From the IMG/VR virus record IMGVR_UViG_3300005518_000035, positions 1-28,536 of that record: a stretch of DNA of 28,536 nt. One strand, given 5' to 3'. Positions 9,095 through 19,993 of the stretch are shown here, piece by piece. A model generated the notes under the pieces. It worked only from the letters and a program-made list of their open reading frames with translations. It was not told the origin of the DNA and ran no database searches. The DNA comes from a virus. Both the position numbers and the translations under genes were made by a program. Position 1 is the stretch's first letter, and every line of letters begins with the position of its first letter.

Positions 9095-9171
9095 CACTTG
9101 CCTCCCTTGGTCTGCTCGAATCGCTTGGCCATCTCATCGAGTTCCTTCTCTTGCTCTTCTGTGAGATTCAC
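9094..9171 (-). CDS. 25-residue microprotein starting at a tRNA-like 3' end
   Basis: GTG 9171 followed by NLTEEQEKELDEMAKRFEQT and GGK, ending by overlapping the next gene (GTGATG). The peptide is a single charged helix of a type common in phages. The start codon is one base from the discriminator of the tRNA-like element at 9173-9245, so there is no room for a ribosome site. If that RNA is processed at its 3' end, the mRNA would begin at or next to the GTG. Real or not is uncertain. Confidence 0.45.
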   Translation of the reverse strand: MNLTEEQEKELDEMAKRFEQTKGGK

Positions 9172-9172
9172 G

Positions 9173-9245
9173 TGGACCCGAGGGGATTCGAACCCCCATC
9201 TTCTACAAGCGAGCTGCTCTAGCCAGGCTTTTGAGCTACGGGCCC
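9173..9245 (-). tRNA. Degenerate tRNA (Thr-UGU-like), anticodon arm defective
   Basis: 73 bases. Acceptor GGGCCCG pairs with CGGGTCC (one G-U), followed by discriminator A and then C. T-arm is GGGGG, loop TTCGAAT, CCCCT. D-stem GCTC/GAGC encloses a 13-base loop with GG. The anticodon arm cannot be formed: after CTCGCTTGTA the 3' half of the stem is missing. The remaining bases resemble a tRNA-Thr (UGU) with about five bases deleted. No CCA is encoded. Probably not a decoding tRNA; elbow and acceptor are intact. Confidence 0.55.
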
Positions 9246-13717: not shown

Positions 13718-14401
13718 ATGTTGGACTGGACCCGCTTGGCCCCGGCTGTAGAACGCGCAGCCGGGACCGCATCATCCAACTTCCCTGCACACCACGATAT
13801 CTCCGACGTGAAGCAGGAGTTGTGGGTGTGGATCATGGAGAACAAGAACACGATCACCAGAGTCCTGTCATCAGAAGACGCCACCGAGAACGCGGTGGTA
13901 CCGCTTCTCGTGAAGGCTGCCAACTCGTTCCTCAAGAAGGAGGACGCGCAAGCCTACGGCTATGACCAGGAGGACGTGTTCAACTACTCTCTCGACATGA
14001 TCCAGAGCATCCTTGAAGTCGTGTTCGAGCATGAGGACTGGCAGTCGTTCGCGACTGCCGCCACTCAGGGTATGCCCCGAGCCAAGGCTGAGCCTGCCAC
14101 TGGAGGCAACAACCTGGCTGGCTATGCCGACGTCTCCCGGGCGATCAGCTCACTCACGGATGACCAGTACAACACGCTGGTGTGGCGGTACAAGTACGGC
14201 TACACGTTCCAGCAGATCGGTGCCGAGTCTGGCATCACCAAGCAGGGCGCCGAGAACCGCCACAGGTCGGCCGTGAACGCTATCCAGCAGCACTTGGGCA
14301 AGGGGAGCCTGGCCGACATGCGCAGGGGCTACAGCGGGCGTACAGAGCCTCGCGGTAACGCTGCAGCCAACGCTCGTACCGAGCGTGACTATGAAGGCTG
14401 A
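13718..14401 (+). CDS. Sigma-factor-like HTH protein
   Basis: 227 residues from ATG 13718, six bases after GGAGGA and overlapping an in-frame TGA as TGATG. Residues about 145-195 (ISSLTDDQYNTLVWRYKYGY, then TFQQIGAESGITKQGAENRH) look like sigma region 4: the L-x-x-x-Q helix and the T-x-x-x-I-A helix-turn-helix. The N-terminal 140 residues are helical and may be a degenerate region 2. It could redirect host RNA polymerase to phage promoters or be a terminase-like HTH protein. Late-gene control is inference. It ends the rightward operon before a terminator at 14499. Confidence 0.7.
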   Translation: MLDWTRLAPAVERAAGTASSNFPAHHDISDVKQELWVWIMENKNTITRVLSSEDATENAVVPLLVKAANSFLKKEDAQAYGYDQEDVFNYSLDMIQSILEVVFEHEDWQSFATAATQGMPRAKAEPATGGNNLAGYADVSRAISSLTDDQYNTLVWRYKYGYTFQQIGAESGITKQGAENRHRSAVNAIQQHLGKGSLADMRRGYSGRTEPRGNAAANARTERDYEG

Positions 14402-14454
14402 CGTGCCAGCAAAGCTGGCCGTCCTGGCGCACGGCTTACGCCGTGACGCTGAGT

Positions 14455-14494
14455 GGGTGGGGAGGGCTCGCACCTCCCGGCCTGCTGGTCACCC
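14455..14494 (-). ncRNA. tRNA-elbow minihelix M9 (operon end)
   Basis: Read on the minus strand: acceptor GGGTG, linker ACCAGCAGGCC, T-stem GGGAGG, loop TGCGAGC, T-stem CCTCCC, acceptor CACCC, then ACT. It lies 33 bases after the last gene of the leftward operon with no gene beyond it on that strand. The loop has G instead of T at the second position and the linker has AG instead of GG, like M4. Confidence 0.7.
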
Positions 14495-14498
14495 TTGG

Positions 14499-14525
14499 GA
14501 CCTCGGCTACGGCCGGGGTCTTTCT
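14499..14525 (+). terminator. Terminator for the rightward HNH-phosphoesterase-sigma operon
   Basis: GACCTCGGC (14499-14507) pairs with GCCGGGGTC (14512-14520), 9 bp with one G-U and loop TACG, followed by TTTCT. About 100 bases after the sigma-like gene stop. Confidence 0.65.
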
Positions 14526-14527
14526 GC

Positions 14528-14590
14528 TTAGCTGAAGATGGCTCGGCCGATGAAGATGCCGATAGCGATACCTACGAGCAGCATGAACAT
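14528..14590 (-). CDS. 20-residue single-pass membrane peptide
   Basis: ATG 14590 with AGGAG five bases upstream, two bases after the previous stop. The whole product, MFMLLVGIAIGIFIGRAIFS, is one hydrophobic helix with a single Arg. It is the last gene of the second leftward operon. The strong ribosome site and tight spacing argue that it is translated; a role as membrane regulator or toxin-like peptide is only speculation. Confidence 0.6.
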   Translation of the reverse strand: MFMLLVGIAIGIFIGRAIFS

Positions 14591-14592
14591 AC

Positions 14593-14763
14593 TTACTCCT
14601 CTCCGGACCACGCCTTGAGGGCGTCGTCCGCATCGATCTCGTCCTCCACCATGTACATGATGGCGTCCTGCGCTCGCTTGGCCTTGTCGTACCAGTGCAC
14701 TGCGGTACCCACCGCGCTGGCCAGCAGGAGGCCGCTCACGAACTGGAGCGTGTTACTCCTCAC
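14593..14763 (-). CDS. 56-residue membrane-anchored protein
   Basis: GTG 14763 overlaps the previous stop (GTGA) with GGGAG seven bases upstream. Residues 6-24 (LQFVSGLLLASAVGTAVHW) form one membrane segment; a charged, acidic helical tail follows (AKRAQDAIMYMVEDEIDADD). It is coupled to the 20-residue membrane peptide that follows. No family recognised. Confidence 0.7.
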   Translation of the reverse strand: MRSNTLQFVSGLLLASAVGTAVHWYDKAKRAQDAIMYMVEDEIDADDALKAWSGEE

Positions 14764-15332
14764 CAGTCACTCCCTAGGTTGCTCTCTCGCCTGTAGTACT
14801 GCTCAAGGCTTTTGTTTGAGTCGGCGCAGAGAGCGCCGGTCTTGACGTTGCGCATGAGCACGCACTGCGGTGCGGTAGCGATGACCTCGAAGATGAACTC
14901 TCTCTGATGCTGAGAAAGTCGATCTCCGATCGCCCAGTCCGGGTTCTTCCAGGCATCCTCGATCATCTCGTCCGTCATCTCGACCATCTTGCCGTCGAGC
15001 CTCTTCTTCGGACGGAACTCCTCGCAGTACTCCCACGTCGGCGGGGAGGAAGGACCGAGCCAGCCGTACGACGACGTCTCGGACACGATCCACACCCTCC
15101 CCGCCTCGTCGTCCAGCCACGCTACCCGCCTCACCTTCGCGTCGTACGGTGACTTGAGGAGCATGCCCGACCGCAAGGGAGTGGCAGGCTTCATGATCGG
15201 AGAGAGAAGCATCTCATGGAAGCCTTCCACGATCTCCTTGGCGATCTCGTCAAGAGATCGCCCCTCGTTCCGGTCGGCGTCCAGAAACCTCGCCACCTGC
15301 TCGATCTGTTGCTTCTTACTCGGTAGTGGCAA
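14760..15332 (-). CDS. Hypothetical protein
   Basis: 190 residues starting at TTG 15332, chosen because AAGGAGG lies eight bases upstream; the open frame continues further upstream only through the preceding gene. N-terminal helices (KKQQIEQVARFLDADRNEGR, SLDEIAKEIVEGFHEML), then a beta-rich middle (AKVRRVAWLDDEAGRVWIVS, EYCEEFRPKKRLDG) and a C-terminal segment with two Cys (PQCVLMRN, ALCADSN). No recognised family. It overlaps its upstream neighbour by 17 bases and its downstream neighbour by four. Confidence 0.75.
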   Translation of the reverse strand: MPLPSKKQQIEQVARFLDADRNEGRSLDEIAKEIVEGFHEMLLSPIMKPATPLRSGMLLKSPYDAKVRRVAWLDDEAGRVWIVSETSSYGWLGPSSPPTWEYCEEFRPKKRLDGKMVEMTDEMIEDAWKNPDWAIGDRLSQHQREFIFEVIATAPQCVLMRNVKTGALCADSNKSLEQYYRRESNLGSDW

Positions 15333-15570: not shown

Positions 15571-15610
15571 GGGTGCCGGGGTCTCGAACCCCGGTGACTG
15601 CCGGTCACCC
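15571..15610 (-). ncRNA. tRNA-elbow minihelix M8
   Basis: Minus strand: acceptor GGGTG, linker ACCGGCAGTCA, T-stem CCGGGG, loop TTCGAGA, T-stem CCCCGG, acceptor CACCC, then ACT. All 11 pairs are Watson-Crick except one G-T-free check: stem bases match exactly. It begins six bases after the stop of the gene at 15617 and ends 24 bases before the next GTG. Confidence 0.8.
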
Positions 15611-15616
15611 TACCTA

Positions 15617-15970
15617 TCAGAAGTTCTGCTCGATCAAGTCTGCGATCTCGGCGAACGTCGCACCGTTGTCGTTCTTGTAGGACAGGCAGTCCACACCTTC
15701 CCCGCCAACCGCAGGATCGTCGCTAGTGATGTTCGCCCACTCCTGCACCCTGCTCGGCAGGAAGCTGCTGTTGGTGTAGCCACCGCTAAGGCGGTAGCCG
15801 TCTTCCTCCCACTCGCCCAGCCCGGAGATCTCGCACAGAACCCCCAGGCAGCAGTAGCTGACCTCTCCGCTAGAGTCCTTGCTCCTTAGGGCGAGGTGGC
15901 TCTGCTCGTACTCCCCGGAGCGGAGTGCGGCGACCCACTGGGCCTTGATTTCGGGATTCATCTTCTCCAT
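15617..15970 (-). CDS. Conserved phage/bacterial hypothetical protein
   Basis: 117 residues from ATG 15970 with AGGAGG four bases away; the frame opens further upstream but into an RNA structure. Features: NPEIKAQWVAALRSGEYEQS, then YCCLGVLCEISGLGEW, LPSRVQEWANI and GATFAEIADLIEQNF. This matches a widespread family of unknown function that I recognise by its CCLGVLC and TFAEIADLIE blocks. It is probably soluble. It is flanked by the 16010-16082 structure upstream and minihelix M8 downstream. Confidence 0.8.
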   Translation of the reverse strand: MEKMNPEIKAQWVAALRSGEYEQSHLALRSKDSSGEVSYCCLGVLCEISGLGEWEEDGYRLSGGYTNSSFLPSRVQEWANITSDDPAVGGEGVDCLSYKNDNGATFAEIADLIEQNF

Positions 15971-16009
15971 GATTCCTCCTGCTGTAGCCTTCCGCTTCTG
16001 CGGACAGGC

Positions 16010-16082
16010 CAGCACGATGCGAACATCCGCCTAGGGTGTGAGAAAGGCGGGCGCCTACTTATGTTTCGGCAACATCGTGCTG
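16010..16082 (-). ncRNA. 73-nt cloverleaf-like structured RNA (candidate)
   Basis: Minus strand: outer stem CAGCACGATG (16082-16073) with CATCGTGCTG (16019-16010), 10 perfect pairs. Inside, ATGTT-GCCGA-AACAT, then CCGCC with a 14-base loop and GGCGG, and possibly GATG-TTCG-CATC. It occupies the same intercistronic position as the minihelices (35 bases after a stop, 39 before a start) but lacks their T-loop. Confidence 0.5.
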
Positions 16083-16091
16083 ACTTGACCG

Positions 16092-16111
16092 CCCAGGCCT
16101 TCGGGCCTGGG
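16092..16111. other. UUCG/CGAA hairpin after the 16118 gene
   Basis: CCCAGGCC pairs with GGCCTGGG around TTCG, 8 bp. It directly follows the stop of the small gene at 16118 on the minus strand, without a U-tract. Confidence 0.5.
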
Positions 16112-16117
16112 ACGGGA

Positions 16118-16303
16118 TTAGACTTCTTCTACGATGACCGTGACCTTGAAGACCGGGCCGTACGGGTCGTACGGCTCCTCTTCCTCAAGACGGGTCATGT
16201 CGCTGGACACGTAACCGAGAACGTCGGAAGCATCCGAGCCGTACGACGTCACATAGTAGCCCACGCCCTCGGCTCGCTTGAGTTCCTCTCGCTTGAGTCC
16301 CAT
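16118..16303 (-). CDS. 61-residue hypothetical protein
   Basis: ATG 16303, AGGGA about four bases upstream. Starts GLKREELKRAEGVGYYVTSY, then acidic middle (TRLEEEEPYDPYG) and a final hydrophobic strand (VFKVTVIVEEV). Follows the 16305 gene stop by one base, so the two are coupled. No family recognised. Confidence 0.7.
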   Translation of the reverse strand: MGLKREELKRAEGVGYYVTSYGSDASDVLGYVSSDMTRLEEEEPYDPYGPVFKVTVIVEEV

Positions 16304-16304
16304 G

Positions 16305-16772
16305 TCATCCCTTCGGTTCTGACAGGTCGATCACGCCGCCCTGGACCATGCCCACAATAAACGCATGGCGGTCCTGGAGGGCCTCCCACTCGTCGTGGGT
16401 CTCCTCGTGCCGACCGCGTGCCGACAGGACCTCTGCGGACCACTCAGGGACGTCGCCGATAGCGCCGTCGCCTACGTAGACCACGGAGGTCAGCCAGCGG
16501 TCGACCCTTGAGCCTTCGCCGAGGATAAGTCCCAGGATGTTCGTGGCGGTGAACAGCTCGGGGTTGTCCCCGGTGACCACGGCGTAGTCGCCGACGTACG
16601 TGATGAACCGGGCGTACAGGCTCTCCGGTTCGATGTCCGCCTCATCCACCCGGAAGTGGACGGGACACTCATCGCCCTGAGGGCACCACTCGGCTCGCAC
16701 CTCGGCGTAAGCGTCCTTCAGGATCTCCTCGGCCTGCTGCTCCGTCGAGTTGATCTCATCGTTGCCCATCAT
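16305..16772 (-). CDS. Acidic hypothetical protein
   Basis: 155 residues from ATG 16772 (ATG 16769 is better spaced from AGGGAG). Very acidic, with helical N-terminus (QQAEEILKDAYAEVRAEW), a Cys pair in WCPQGDECPVHF (29-40) and a hydrophobic C-terminal helix (RHAFIVGMVQGGVIDL). No recognised domain. Operon member between a zinc-ribbon gene and a small gene. Confidence 0.75.
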   Translation of the reverse strand: MMGNDEINSTEQQAEEILKDAYAEVRAEWCPQGDECPVHFRVDEADIEPESLYARFITYVGDYAVVTGDNPELFTATNILGLILGEGSRVDRWLTSVVYVGDGAIGDVPEWSAEVLSARGRHEETHDEWEALQDRHAFIVGMVQGGVIDLSEPKG

Positions 16773-16777
16773 GCTCC

Positions 16778-16936
16778 CTAAGCGTAGCAGTCGTACTCGA
16801 TGTCTACTGACGTGCTCTGGCCGTATGTGAAGATGTCTTCACACGTGGCTGAACAGATCAGCTCTGATGACTTGCCCATGTCGCCCTTGCATACCAGGCA
16901 CTTGGAGTCATCAGCCCAATCCGGTTCCCCAAACAT
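16778..16936 (-). CDS. 52-residue zinc-ribbon protein
   Basis: Start at ATG 16936 (MFGEPDWADDSKCLVCKGDM), because AAAGG and GGAAG lie just upstream and the longer frame would run through minihelix M7 and a hairpin. Cysteines CLVC (13-16) and CSATC (28-32) form a zinc-ribbon set. The minihelix ends 44 bases before this start. Nucleic-acid or protein binding is possible; function unknown. Confidence 0.7.
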   Translation of the reverse strand: MFGEPDWADDSKCLVCKGDMGKSSELICSATCEDIFTYGQSTSVDIEYDCYA

Positions 16937-16954
16937 CTTCCAGCCTTTCGTTCC

Positions 16955-16976
16955 GGTTTCAGCAGGAGCTGAAACC
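16955..16976 (-). other. Hairpin between M7 and ribosome site
   Basis: GGTTTCAGC (16955-16963) with GCTGAAACC (16968-16976), 9 bp, 4-base loop. It begins four bases after M7 on the minus strand. Confidence 0.65.
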
Positions 16977-16980
16977 TTGC

Positions 16981-17020
16981 GCCAGCCCAGGACTCGAACC
17001 TGGGTGTATGCCGTTCTGGC
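16981..17020 (-). ncRNA. tRNA-elbow minihelix M7
   Basis: Minus strand: acceptor GCCAG, linker AACGGCATACA, T-stem CCCAGG, loop TTCGAGT, T-stem CCTGGG, acceptor CTGGC, then GCA. It starts 10 bases after the phosphoribosyltransferase-like gene stop. The base after the acceptor is G instead of the usual A. Confidence 0.8.
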
Positions 17021-17030
17021 CACCTGTGCG

Positions 17031-17465
17031 TCACTTGAACGAATATCCGACTTCCGAGCTCGCAGAGAGCTCGAGCTGCGGACCCCCATCGGAGTAGTTG
17101 CAGTACATGTACTGTCCGACGAACGTCGTCTTCACGTCGTAATCCCGGGCGACGTCATCGACCTTCTCGATGACCCGCATGCGGGTCCTTCCGGACGACA
17201 CGAAATCGTCCACGAAGATCCACCGCTCACCCAGGTCGCCGAGCATCCGGCCCCTGCCATGGTGGGAGTCGTCCGTCTCCTTGCGGATCAGGACGAACTT
17301 CTTGCCCATGGCGAGTGCGAGGGCGGGGATGACGATCCCACCCGAGAAGCCTGCGCCGACCATCGTGTCGAAATCGACGTCGGCCAGCCGCTTCTGAGCG
17401 GTTTCGATCACCTCTGCGAGGTCGAAGACGGCGGCGTCCATGTAGTACGTCTGGAACCTGGTCAC
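17031..17465 (-). CDS. Type I phosphoribosyltransferase-like protein
   Basis: 144 residues from GTG 17465 with GAGGAGG five bases upstream; a longer frame would run through minihelix M6. The PRPP-binding motif is RWIFVDDFVSSGRTRMRV (81-98): hydrophobic strand, two Asp (86, 87), then S-S-G-R-T. An N-terminal helical region and GAGFSGGIVIPALALAMGKKF give the core Rossmann-like fold. Such enzymes join a base or similar nucleophile with PRPP, often in nucleotide salvage; the hood that would show the substrate is not recognisable. It may help phage nucleotide supply. It lies between M6 and M7. Confidence 0.8.
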   Translation of the reverse strand: MTRFQTYYMDAAVFDLAEVIETAQKRLADVDFDTMVGAGFSGGIVIPALALAMGKKFVLIRKETDDSHHGRGRMLGDLGERWIFVDDFVSSGRTRMRVIEKVDDVARDYDVKTTFVGQYMYCNYSDGGPQLELSASSEVGYSFK

Positions 17466-17479
17466 GATGTCCTCCTCAA

Positions 17480-17496
17480 GGGCACCCTGCGCGCCC
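17480..17496 (-). other. Hairpin between M6 and ribosome site
   Basis: GGGCAC (17480-17485) with GCGCCC (17491-17496); six pairs, one mismatch-tolerant as RNA (G-U). Directly 3' of M6 and before the GTG of the phosphoribosyltransferase-like gene. Confidence 0.5.
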
Positions 17497-17501
17497 TCAG
17501 T

Positions 17502-17541
17502 GCCTGCCTGAGACTCGAACTCAGGTGTATGCCATTCAGGC
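17502..17541 (-). ncRNA. tRNA-elbow minihelix M6
   Basis: Minus strand: acceptor GCCTG, linker AATGGCATACA, T-stem CCTGAG, loop TTCGAGT, T-stem CTCAGG, acceptor CAGGC, then ACT. Six bases after the Cys-rich gene stop and 36 bases before the next GTG. Confidence 0.8.
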
Positions 17542-17547
17542 CACCCT

Positions 17548-17721
17548 TCACCCTCCGTATGCATGTTCGCGCTGGCACTCGAACATGCTCAGCACGCCCG
17601 GGAACGGGCGGAGCGGGAGGGGCTCGCAGTCGACCTCTTCACACTCCAGACAAAGCGCCCCGACCTCGCCTATCGCGATATCCGGGCAGTCGCGGCAGGC
17701 GCAGGGCACGTATCCGCTCAT
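17548..17721 (-). CDS. 57-residue Cys-rich protein
   Basis: Start at ATG 17721 with AAGGGAG seven bases upstream. Sequence opens MSGYVPCACRDCPDIAIG, then GALCLECEEVDCE, so it has three plus three cysteines in short clusters (CACRDC and CLECEEVDC), the arrangement of a small zinc protein. It ends with SMFECQREHAYGG. I remember similar actinophage proteins, but no known function. Confidence 0.75.
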   Translation of the reverse strand: MSGYVPCACRDCPDIAIGEVGALCLECEEVDCEPLPLRPFPGVLSMFECQREHAYGG

Positions 17722-17742
17722 GATGTCACTCCCTTGACTCAA

Positions 17743-17760
17743 GACCCCCTCAAGGGGGTC
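17743..17760 (-). other. Hairpin between M5 and ribosome site
   Basis: GACCCCCT (17743-17750) with AGGGGGTC (17753-17760), a stem of eight pairs with a two-base formal loop, so in practice about six to seven pairs. Placed between M5 and the Cys-rich gene start. Confidence 0.6.
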
Positions 17761-17765
17761 TCAGT

Positions 17766-17805
17766 GCCCGTCTACGGCTCGAACGTAGATGCCTGCCCGT
17801 CGGGC
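17766..17805 (-). ncRNA. tRNA-elbow minihelix M5
   Basis: Minus strand: acceptor GCCCG, linker ACGGGCAGGCA, T-stem TCTACG, loop TTCGAGC, T-stem CGTAGA, acceptor CGGGC, then ACT. Thirteen bases after the membrane protein stop. Confidence 0.8.
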
Positions 17806-17818
17806 TACCCTTGCTACC

Positions 17819-18100
17819 TCAGCGGCGCTTAGAGCCGCCGCTGAAGCTCTTGCTCTTGCTGAGGCCGCCGAACCCCTTGGACTTCGGCTTGGAGGGCACC
17901 ACATAGTACTTGTTACCCTTGGTGTACCTCGGGAAGTAGTGGAACTTCCCGTCATGGTCGTAGTGGCCGTACGAGGAAGTGTGCGGGTACTGGTAGGTAC
18001 CACCACCACTCGTGGTGTTGTGCGCCACTACGGCGATGAGCATGAAGAGGACCACGAAGGCCCCCACGATCAGAGTGAGTGCCTTGTTGTCGTCGCTCAT
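17819..18100 (-). CDS. Single-pass membrane protein with Gly/Ser/Lys-rich tail
   Basis: 93 residues from ATG 18100 with GAGGACGAT upstream. Residues 7-26 (ALTLIVGAFVVLFMLIAVVA) are a clear membrane segment near the N-terminus. The remainder is Tyr/His/Gly-rich (YQYPHTSSYGHYDHDGKFHY) and then basic with Ser-Lys repeats (KSKGFGGLSKSKSFSGGSKR). The topology, small size and basic tail suggest a surface or membrane-modifying role. No family recognised. It lies between M4 and M5. Confidence 0.75.
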   Translation of the reverse strand: MSDDNKALTLIVGAFVVLFMLIAVVAHNTTSGGGTYQYPHTSSYGHYDHDGKFHYFPRYTKGNKYYVVPSKPKSKGFGGLSKSKSFSGGSKRR

Positions 18101-18140
18101 ATCGTCCTCATTTCCCGGTTCAGTCGCTTGCCGAACCCGT

Positions 18141-18180
18141 GGGTGTCAAGGCCTTGCACCCTGATGGCTGCTGGTCACCC
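18141..18180 (-). ncRNA. tRNA-elbow minihelix M4, variant loop
   Basis: Minus strand: acceptor GGGTG, linker ACCAGCAGCCA, T-stem TCAGGG, loop TGCAAGG, T-stem CCTTGA (one G-U), acceptor CACCC, then ACG. It has the same 5-11-6-7-6-5 layout as the others. Loop position 2 is G and linker position 4 is A, matching M9. Its 3' end is 40 bases before the membrane gene ATG. Confidence 0.7.
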
Positions 18181-18245
18181 GATGGGGCTAGTTTATGCCC
18201 CCGTCTCTCCCTGCCAGGACAGAACTCCGGCGGGGAGAAGCTGTG

Positions 18246-18620
18246 TCAGAGTCGCATGAACACCACGTCCGGACCGCCTTCGGTCCGGTTGGCCTCACGC
18301 ATGTACTCGCGGAACCCGAACTGCTCGTAGTACTTCGGCAGGAACCCGTCGAAACAGTCGAGCCACGCCGCGCCGTCGAGCTGGATAGCATCAAGGACCA
18401 GGCCTTCTCCTCGTCCCCGGACGAGAGAATAGAGGCCGATCAGTTCATCTGTCGTCGTCACGCCGTAGCCGGACGCCTTGTCCTCGGTCAGGAAGTACTC
18501 TGCCGAGTCCGGCATCTCTTCCGGGGGCGGGGTGGCGTTCTTGATGCGATCCGATTCGGCACGTGCCGCCTTCAGGGCGGTCACGTACTCTTCTCGGCTC
18601 ACGGCCCACGTTGTCGCCAT
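18246..18620 (-). CDS. GNAT-like acetyltransferase fold protein (probable)
   Basis: 124 residues from ATG 18620 with AGGAGG six bases upstream. After a helical N-terminus (REEYVTALKAARAESDRIKN) the order GYGVTTTDELIGLYSLVRGR, then GLVLDAIQLDGAAWLDCFDG, FLPKYYEQFGFREY and PDVVFMRL fits GNAT proteins: a strand-turn with R-G-x-G, the central strand, and the final Y-x-x-x-G-F motif. If active it would transfer an acetyl group from acetyl-CoA to an unknown target. It lies after tandem minihelices M2 and M3. Confidence 0.55.
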   Translation of the reverse strand: MATTWAVSREEYVTALKAARAESDRIKNATPPPEEMPDSAEYFLTEDKASGYGVTTTDELIGLYSLVRGRGEGLVLDAIQLDGAAWLDCFDGFLPKYYEQFGFREYMREANRTEGGPDVVFMRL

Positions 18621-18648
18621 ACTGTCCTCCTGTAAGTGGATCTTGCGT

Positions 18649-18689
18649 GCCCCGGACAGGAATCGAACCTGCCTGCAACCACTCGGGAC
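18649..18689 (-). ncRNA. tRNA-elbow minihelix M3
   Basis: Minus strand: acceptor GTCCCG, linker AGTGGTTGCA, T-stem GGCAGG, loop TTCGATT, T-stem CCTGTC (one G-U), acceptor CGGGGC (one U-G), then ACG. Six-base-pair acceptor and ten-base linker. The linker resembles the D-loop of class II tRNAs. It follows M2 with a two-base gap. Confidence 0.78.
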
Positions 18690-18691
18690 GT

Positions 18692-18731
18692 GCCCTGGGC
18701 GGGAGTCGAACCCGCCTTACACCATCAGGGC
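18692..18731 (-). ncRNA. tRNA-elbow minihelix M2
   Basis: Minus strand: acceptor GCCCTG, linker ATGGTGTAA, T-stem GGCGGG, loop TTCGACT, T-stem CCCGCC, acceptor CAGGGC, then ACG. Perfect 12-bp stack. The linker matches the D-loop part of tRNA-Gln as I remember it (TATGGTGTAA). Eight bases after the 18740 gene stop. Confidence 0.8.
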
Positions 18732-18739
18732 TGTGTTTC

Positions 18740-19120
18740 TCAGAGTTCCATCAGGGCGAATGTGGCGGCGTCGCCCCACGTCCTCCCTCGGTCTTGCACG
18801 GACTGAGCGGCCTGGAGGGCGTTCATGCCCTTCCAGGAGATCGTGATCACGCCCTCCTCACGCAGACAATCGAGGAGGTCGAAAGCAGACTGACCGAGGG
18901 ATGTGGTGGTGTCGCCCTGCTTCAGGCGTTCTACCGGCACGCCCTTCCCAGCGAGGAACTGACCGATGATGCAGTCAGGCTTGCCCTGGTGGACGTAGAC
19001 GCACCCGCCCTCGGAGTCCTCCGTGACGTTGCGCTTGGAGTAGACGAAGTCCTCACCCTGCTTGATGACCAGGGCCGAAAGCCCGTTCTTGATGTCATCG
19101 TCAGAGATGTTGATCGTCAT
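18740..19120 (-). CDS. Hypothetical protein
   Basis: 126 residues from ATG 19120; GGGAGAGG lies somewhat far upstream. Short N-terminal acidic helix (ISDDDIKNGLSALVIKQGED), then a beta segment with two Cys (SEGGCVYVHQGKPDCIIGQF) and a C-terminal helical part (SAFDLLDCLREEGVITISWK, ALQAAQSVQDRGRTW). Related small proteins occur in other actinophages as far as I recall, without known role. It is bracketed by M1 upstream and M2/M3 downstream. Confidence 0.75.
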   Translation of the reverse strand: MTINISDDDIKNGLSALVIKQGEDFVYSKRNVTEDSEGGCVYVHQGKPDCIIGQFLAGKGVPVERLKQGDTTTSLGQSAFDLLDCLREEGVITISWKGMNALQAAQSVQDRGRTWGDAATFALMEL

Positions 19121-19141
19121 GTGCTGTGTCCTCTCCCTAGA

Positions 19142-19159
19142 GGGCGCCCCAAGGCGCCC
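19142..19159 (-). other. Hairpin between M1 and ribosome site
   Basis: GGGCGCC (19142-19148) with GGCGCCC (19153-19159), 7 bp, 4-base loop, four bases from M1. Confidence 0.65.
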
Positions 19160-19163
19160 CAGT

Positions 19164-19203
19164 GCCCTCTCACGACTCGAACGTGAGTGTATGCCGTCAG
19201 GGC
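19164..19203 (-). ncRNA. tRNA-elbow minihelix M1
   Basis: Minus strand: acceptor GCCCT, linker GACGGCATACA, T-stem CTCACG, loop TTCGAGT, T-stem CGTGAG, acceptor AGGGC, then ACT. Seven bases after the stop of the gene at 19211 and 43 bases before the next ATG. Confidence 0.8.
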
Positions 19204-19751: not shown

Positions 19752-19784
19752 GGTGTACCTCTCTCTCTAGCCTTGCGACAAGGT

Positions 19785-19822
19785 CGCAGGCCCCGAGACA
19801 CGGCTTGCGCCGTGTCCCTGCG
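19785..19822. other. Bulged hairpin with a competing fold
   Basis: CGCAGG (19785-19790) pairs with CCTGCG (19817-19822), enclosing GACACGGC-TTGC-GCCGTGTC (19797-19816). TGCGAC-AAG-GTCGCA just to the left shares the CGCAGG bases, so the two folds exclude each other. Confidence 0.5.
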
Positions 19823-19831
19823 GAGCCAAGA

Positions 19832-19923
19832 GGGCCCAGGGTGCCACGTGCATGGCTGAGCCAGCTATAGCAATCATCGCTGGCATGGCTGAGCACGTGT
19901 GTTGCTGTTTGCACCCTGGGCCC
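19832..19923. ncRNA. 92-base imperfect hairpin (candidate structured RNA)
   Basis: Three nested perfect stems: GGGCCCAGGGTG/CACCCTGGGCCC (12 bp), CACGTGC/GCACGTG (7 bp), GCCAGC/GCTGGC (6 bp), with a 13-base loop. Between the last two lies a symmetric internal loop with the same 8-mer ATGGCTGA on both sides. On the plus strand this loop can close by G-C and G-U pairs, on the minus strand it cannot, so plus-strand transcription is favoured. Confidence 0.6.
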
Positions 19924-19993
19924 GATGGCTCTTACAGGGAAATTGGACTGCGACGCTCTAGCGTCGATGCGTGTGAACCACCAGGTAGCCATC
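19924..19993. other. Bracketed structure GATGGCT ... AGCCATC
   Basis: A 7-bp outer stem (19924-19930 with 19987-19993) encloses the hairpin CGACGC-TCTA-GCGTCG (19951-19966). AGCCAT could also pair with the ATGGCT copies in the adjacent 92-base hairpin. Confidence 0.4.

Follow-up and report, generated by a model that had tools for sequence, protein, structure and literature searches.

Half-tRNA-like minihelices between early phage genes as candidate RNA-processing marks

Nine minihelices in an early-type operon

The stretch analysed here, referred to as the window, is the whole of a 28,536-base virus record (IMG/VR record IMGVR_UViG_3300005518_000035), in which the plus strand carries the terminase and portal genes and the minus strand an operon of early type, made up of small genes. 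A structural scan of the window revealed nine minihelices of ~40 nucleotides (nt), every one on the minus strand (Table 1). Each comprises an acceptor stem and a T-arm like those of a transfer RNA (tRNA), joined on the 5' side by a short linker, with the D-stem and the anticodon arm absent. The three features that the first-pass annotation had read from these letters as hallmarks of a ribonuclease P (RNase P) substrate were confirmed in the window. The acceptor begins with G (G1, in tRNA numbering) in all nine copies and the 3' flank is a purine followed by C (AC in eight, GC in the copy at 16981), while T-stem and acceptor form a stack of 11 base pairs (bp) in seven copies (6 + 5) and of 12 bp in two (6 + 6). 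The linker measures 11 nt in seven copies and 9 and 10 nt in the remaining two. None of the nine was detected by ARAGORN, none has a full cloverleaf with anticodon, and Rfam gave no match at their positions even at E<=5, neither to transfer-messenger RNA (tmRNA) nor to the Pistol ribozyme.

Table 1. Minihelices and neighbouring features of the window
Feature	Position	Strand	Description
Minihelix 1	19164..19203	-	5-bp acceptor GCCCT/AGGGC, 11-nt linker, 6-bp T-stem, loop TTCGAGT, flank AC; starts 7 nt past the gene C stop codon (19211)
Minihelix 2	18692..18731	-	12 bp (6 + 6), 9-nt linker; 8 nt past the stop codon at 18740; in tandem with minihelix 3, AC being the sole intervening letters
Minihelix 3	18649..18689	-	12 bp (6 + 6), 10-nt linker, flank AC
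Minihelix 4	18141..18180	-	Variant loop TGCAAGG, with matching AG in the linker
Minihelix 5	17766..17805	-	Upstream of gene G; slot held by a Pistol ribozyme in the orthologous L018 operon
Minihelix 6	17502..17541	-	6 nt past the gene G stop codon; upstream of phosphoribosyltransferase gene H
Minihelix 7	16981..17020	-	Downstream of gene H; sole copy with a GC flank
Minihelix 8	15571..15610	-	6 nt past a stop codon; loop TTCGAGA, with matching T at linker position 9
Minihelix 9	14455..14494	-	Operon end, ~4 nt after a hairpin; outside the part covered by the first-pass annotation, whose count of nine needs it
Second hairpin (example)	17740..17762	-	GACCCCC-UUGA-GGGGGUC; begins ~4 nt after minihelix 5
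Gene G	17548..17721	-	57 aa
Gene H	17031..17465	-	Phosphoribosyltransferase-like (phrog_2068); minihelices on both flanks
Sigma-like gene	13718..14401	+	Convergent with minihelix 9
tRNA-like RNA	9173..9245	-	Full-size, degenerate; R73 included in its end, C74 at 9172, GTG start codon at 9171 directly next
Structured RNA	19760..19945	-	Very strong, ahead of the operon's first gene; nested long stems; z = -8.5 against shuffles; no Rfam match
Structured RNA	15972..16117	-	In a minihelix-free gap of the same operon; 11-bp closing stem; z = -4.4; no Rfam match

The family, its tRNA-like elbow and its ends

An exact pattern of linker and loop retrieved 113 viral DNA stretches, and further patterns together with phage records enlarged the set to ~240 loci (designated below by L and three digits) and 504 distinct elements. 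Only linker and loop entered these patterns, the acceptor stem and the flank being no part of them, and 292 of the 504 elements match none of the patterns. A structural rule applied to 238 loci (2.1 Mb) gave 614 matches, compared with 5 when the sequence was reversed and 6-8 when the loop motifs were permuted, so the minihelices are not a product of chance. The common plan (T-stem of 6, acceptor of 5 and linker of 11) is seen in 408/504 elements; 431 elements have an 11-bp stack and 65 a 12-bp stack. At locus L139, elements starting with C1 (CCCTG..CAGGG), some with a hairpin immediately upstream, keep the plan otherwise unchanged.

A covariance model, R1, matched the nine window copies with scores from 61.9 to 16.5 bits. 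It also found ten matches in Streptomyces phage Indigo, seven in BroPlease and eleven in Fowlmouth, and as many as 15 in Mycobacterium phage Send513; the weakest are short partial matches. In the named phages the matches fall mostly within the early-gene part of each genome. In Send513 (L238) a GOLLD RNA scoring 180 bits lies at 14305-14765, downstream of the minihelix-bearing region. Parts of the operon region are matched by 171 Streptomyces phage records, and more than 100 IMG/VR contigs carry an element. Matches in genomes include Microbacterium, Jiangella, Amycolatopsis, Corynebacterium, Tenacibaculum, Proteiniphilum and a Flavobacteriales metagenome-assembled genome; only 4 of 198 and 2 of 295 sampled genomes hold elements, a rarity to be expected since these belong to phages. 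The family extends over phages of Actinobacteria and Bacteroidota. A literature search, mostly of freely readable papers, found no description of such elements; the family is real, widespread and outside Rfam, and apparently undescribed. Because neither Rfam nor the tRNA finders recognise it, the elements stand unannotated in the phage records examined.

A closer look at the linker showed how it can meet the T-loop (linker residues are written L2 to L9 and T-loop residues with T). Residues L4-L5 are GG, or AG, and resemble G18-G19 of the tRNA D-loop. The pair L5:T56, equivalent to G19-C56, is an invariant G-C, with 227 G-C cases counted among the 292 pattern-independent elements, while L4:T55 is G-T and is swapped for A-G, also among the pattern-independent elements. 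Two further contacts, which played no part in the selection of elements by the structural scan, are Watson-Crick in nearly all cases counted among those 292 (L2:L8 in 223/231 and L9:T60 in 217/231). The T-loop, the D-loop-like GG and the G19-C56 pair that define a tRNA elbow are thereby recovered by covariation, and the linker GG with the covariation between linker and T-loop indicates that the minihelices are very likely mimics of that elbow. Two other identities were considered and rejected. The stems vary by copy with compensatory changes and with tertiary covariation, which argues that the elements act as RNA and against a recombination site at the DNA level. Degenerate tRNA genes do not fit the missing anticodon arm or the discrete covariance model, and R1 matches real tRNAs only weakly and partially.

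The ends of the elements are also tRNA-like. In the high-GC phages G1 is present in 414/429 elements, with position 2 about evenly G or C. C at +2 (C74) is found in 420/429 elements of the high-GC and 33/38 of the low-GC phages, and a purine at 73 followed by C74 (R73-C74) closes 95% of the family. C at +3 (C75) occurs in 21/429 elements of the high-GC phages and in ~5% of the family, so an encoded 3'-terminal CCA of the kind that characterises viral tRNA-like structures is no trait of the elements. Position -1 is A in 311/429 elements of the high-GC phages. Pairing between -1 and 73 is avoided: C-1/G73 pairs number 1 against ~11 expected (1/80 versus 67/424, p=1e-4) and T-1/A73 pairs are also scarce (p=0.014), leaving -1/73 unpaired as a family trait. 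The tRNA genes of two host genomes (G064 and G003) and of phage WhereRU served as a yardstick for these ends. There C74 is encoded in 28/28 genes of the actinobacterial genome, 37/38 of WhereRU and 27/27 of Tenacibaculum, and C75 in 15/28, 1/38 and 2/27, respectively. Real tRNA genes thus keep C74 even where C75 is absent, which makes R-C without a second C a signature of tRNA genes.

Placement between genes and exchange with other RNAs

In the annotated phages the elements are nearly all intergenic. The distance from the upstream stop codon, which can be any of the three kinds, has its floor at 6 nt, with 8 of 426 elements closer, is most often 6-8 nt and extends up to 150 nt. A second hairpin begins ~4 nt past the element, and ribosome-binding sites follow from ~24 nt and start codons at 34-52 nt downstream of it. 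A spacer of 6-8 nt after a stop codon recalls retroviral readthrough pseudoknots. A stimulator of readthrough or frameshifting was nevertheless rejected, because all three stops are used, distances range as far as 150 nt and, in 105/426 cases, another in-frame stop precedes the element. An intrinsic terminator was likewise discarded, as no U-run was seen by eye after the second hairpin.

The protein subunit of RNase P touches leader positions -8 to -3 of its substrates (PMC12710915), and the 6-nt floor leaves most of this stretch free, at least ~6 nt preceding the element. We favour, with a probability of about 60%, the reading that the elements are cis-acting mimics of the acceptor/T half of a pre-tRNA through which the host's tRNA-processing enzymes, chiefly RNase P, are brought in to cut the polycistronic messenger RNA (mRNA). 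The same placement could be explained by an uncut, stable and compact fold that insulates cistrons, by stopping ribosome run-on or a 5'-3' exonuclease, or by masking the untranslated RNA from Rho. Ribosome geometry would place the 6-nt floor roughly at the point where unwinding by the helicase centre ceases in a terminating ribosome, and such a role would suit both the compact, strongly covarying tertiary fold and the occupation, in the relevant regions, of many gaps of at least 65 nt (in Indigo, 10 of the 11 same-strand gaps of that size carry an element). A roadblock, however, need not retain R73-C74, G1 or the unpaired -1/73, and the self-cleaving ribozyme found in an orthologous slot points to cutting, so that we consider insulation quite unlikely.

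That ribozyme is Pistol, which lies between genes in L018 (7195-7130 and 6324-6259), L006 (4305-4240), L047 and L113 with its consensus core intact (56.6 and 65.8 bits, cut-off 34.5). The L018 operon is orthologous to that of the window: the first genes are 68% identical, gene H and its ortholog share 74% identity over 131 aa, and the L018 gene next after the second Pistol has a C-terminal part homologous to gene G. The intergenic slot that precedes gene G is held by minihelix 17805-17766 in the window and by a Pistol in L018, placed 1 nt past a stop codon and followed by a ribosome-binding site; along the L018 operon Pistols and minihelices alternate. Pistols in phages, those of the L314-L365 set included, often stand directly after stop codons: of 41 whose upstream open reading frame is clear, most fall within -2 to +12 nt. 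Judging by the known activity of Pistol, its replacement of a minihelix in an orthologous slot means that this slot plausibly provides RNA cutting. Possible co-occurrences of Pistol and minihelix in other phages (L328, L336, L353) were dismissed because the extra matches resemble ordinary tRNAs, and the swap therefore rests on a single lineage.

Two further slots are shared with larger RNAs. At the operon end, the window has minihelix 14494-14455 and 11 relatives have larger tRNA-like RNAs, which, where read, finish in R-C and follow a strong hairpin 4-5 nt upstream. In L218 and L011 the tRNA-like RNAs of this slot apparently hold several T-arm hairpins (2-3 TTCGA loops) within one acceptor stem. 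The occupant of the second slot, at 9245-9173, varies: the window and L042 (4785-4710) have a degenerate tRNA-like RNA there, L034, L011, L012 and L086 an 81-nt RNA resembling the tRNA-like domain of tmRNA, and L174 a minihelix (GGGTGG..CCACCC). The tmRNA-domain-like RNAs, of 81-82 nt, align with the Rfam tmRNA model at both its ends, lack the mRNA domain and sit in phage intergenic slots (L086 12170-12250, L096 3343-3424, L070 8228-8309, L034 9494-9574, L011 7989-8069). These exchanges suggest that the minihelix is a counterpart of larger tRNA mimics with which it shares the acceptor/T half and the R-C end. With the Pistol swap, they support the view that the minihelix is probably a punctuation mark for RNA processing.

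The slot at 9245-9173 also bears on the side of the cut. In the window, L042, L034, L011 and L174 a GTG start codon directly abuts R73-C74, which hints at a second, 3' cut giving leaderless messages; at this junction 3' processing of the tRNA kind could possibly yield an mRNA with no leader. The GTG opens a gene for a conserved 25-aa peptide. An RNase Z-type enzyme might be the main one at work, cutting after R73/C74 so that the minihelix stays behind as the protective, possibly CCA-extended 3' end of the upstream message, and the downstream message begins at a start codon or immediately ahead of the second hairpin. Besides the five GTG junctions, such an enzyme would account for elements lying near the upstream stop (6-8 nt) and farther from the start (34-52 nt), for the second hairpin ~4 nt after the acceptor and for an operon-end copy with no gene downstream. 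If CC acts as an antideterminant, depletion of C75 would also be expected. The bias for G1 (96% in high-GC phages, where position 2 is evenly G or C) and the -1/73 rule are, however, features of the 5' side, and the strong hairpin 4-5 nt before the operon-end tRNA-like RNA would serve no purpose unless a 5' cut were made. Cutting mainly by an RNase Z-type enzyme is thus unlikely.

Proposed processing and known systems

Within the favoured reading, RNase P is the most likely enzyme, since it reads the acceptor/T half, the elbow and R73-C74 and is universal enough to serve phages of two host phyla. The host enzyme would bind the elbow and R73-C74 and cut 5' of G1, parting the upstream message from the next, and in one or more slots an additional 3' cut after R73/C74, as in tRNA maturation, may free the downstream start codon. 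One polycistronic transcript would in this way yield messages that decay and are translated separately. At the operon end, the upstream hairpin would become a protected 3' end once RNase P had cut. That cutting would turn the operon into a set of capped-like mRNAs is a prediction that fails in its simple form for this copy (14494-14455), which has no downstream gene on the same strand; the additional 3' cut hinted at by R73-C74 immediately ahead of a GTG start also tells against it.

Several observations weigh against recruitment of RNase P. G1 is lost in the low-GC phages (2/38), where T1 is commonest, and C75 is depleted, so that of the hallmarks first proposed R73-C74 stands as in real tRNA genes, while G1 is not family-wide and the second C of the R-C-C motif is mostly missing. 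The stack had been described as close to the 12-bp minimum of a substrate; two window copies do have 12 bp, but the family as a rule has 11, a pair fewer than the 12 found in tRNA. RNase P gauges an invariant distance from elbow to cleavage site (PMC4919913), and its RNA spares a pseudoknot model substrate that lacks the 3' R-C-C motif (PMC12710915). Moreover, N-1 is mostly A, whereas the tRNAs of WhereRU commonly have U, and the Pistol swap is known from one phage lineage (four contigs). Pistol cleaves near its own 3' end, so its presence does not indicate on which side a minihelix would be cut.

A broader proposal is that several kinds of RNA-cutting module stand in for one another in the early operons of Actinobacteria and Bacteroidota phages, namely half-tRNAs that recruit RNase P, larger tRNA-like and tmRNA-domain-like RNAs, and Pistol; genes would travel as cassettes, each with its cut mark, and some slots would use the 3' cut for leaderless messages. 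We advance this tentatively, at somewhat short of even odds. The structured RNA in the minihelix-free gap at 16117-15972 could be another, undescribed cutting module. The processed minihelices might instead be released as small RNAs acting in trans, perhaps as decoys for tRNA-directed host nucleases or by occupying RNase P. About ten copies per phage genome would suit this role, and tRNA-like elbows and ends would be expected to bind several tRNA enzymes. The fixed placement between cistrons, the spacing from the stop codon and the Pistol swap are left unexplained by it, however, and it appears highly improbable.

If cutting through recruited RNase P is correct, it explains the content of many intergenic gaps in a widespread phage group and means that viruses use the host tRNA-maturation machinery as a general mRNA scissor. 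The minihelix would also be a tiny natural substrate with which to probe the RNase P ruler, with its fixed 11 bp and R-C without a second C. Under the broader proposal of interchangeable modules, bacterial viruses would possess a tRNA-punctuation system whose RNase P-directed elements would be among the smallest natural ones.

Among known systems, the CR3/CR4 repeats with upstream stem-loops of cluster M mycobacteriophages are also repeated between small right-arm genes (PMC7953290), but the intergenic repeats of phage Estes proved to be plain hairpins with no T-loop element and no R1 match, and this identity was discarded. The tRNA-like domain of tmRNA (RF00023) resembles the minihelix in its acceptor, T-arm and stemless D-like loop, whereas true tmRNA has a 12-bp stack (7 + 5 bp) and an mRNA domain. 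The C4 RNA of phages P1 and P7 is a phage substrate of RNase P that is not a tRNA; it is a single antisense RNA, while the minihelices are repeated as operon punctuation. Pistol (RF02679) shares the type of intergenic slot and, through its lineage, one orthologous slot with the minihelix, yet it is self-cutting and unrelated in sequence and fold, the minihelix having no known catalytic core. The 3'-terminal mascRNA and menRNA elements of MALAT1 and MENbeta are alike in anatomy, as acceptor, T-arm and two D-loop guanines form an elbow there too (PMC11693755). These recruit RNase P and so form the 3' end of the upstream RNA, anticodon function being irrelevant (PMC11693755). They occur as single copies in human RNAs and possess D and anticodon-like arms, whereas the minihelices, of ~40 nt and without either arm, number about ten per phage operon and would undergo a cleavage that is established for mascRNA. 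In their arrangement the minihelix slots recall the tRNA punctuation of mitochondria, where tRNA structures between genes mark the cut sites of polycistronic transcripts; the mitochondrial marks are functional tRNAs, and those described here would be anticodon-less half-tRNA mimics in the operons of bacterial viruses.

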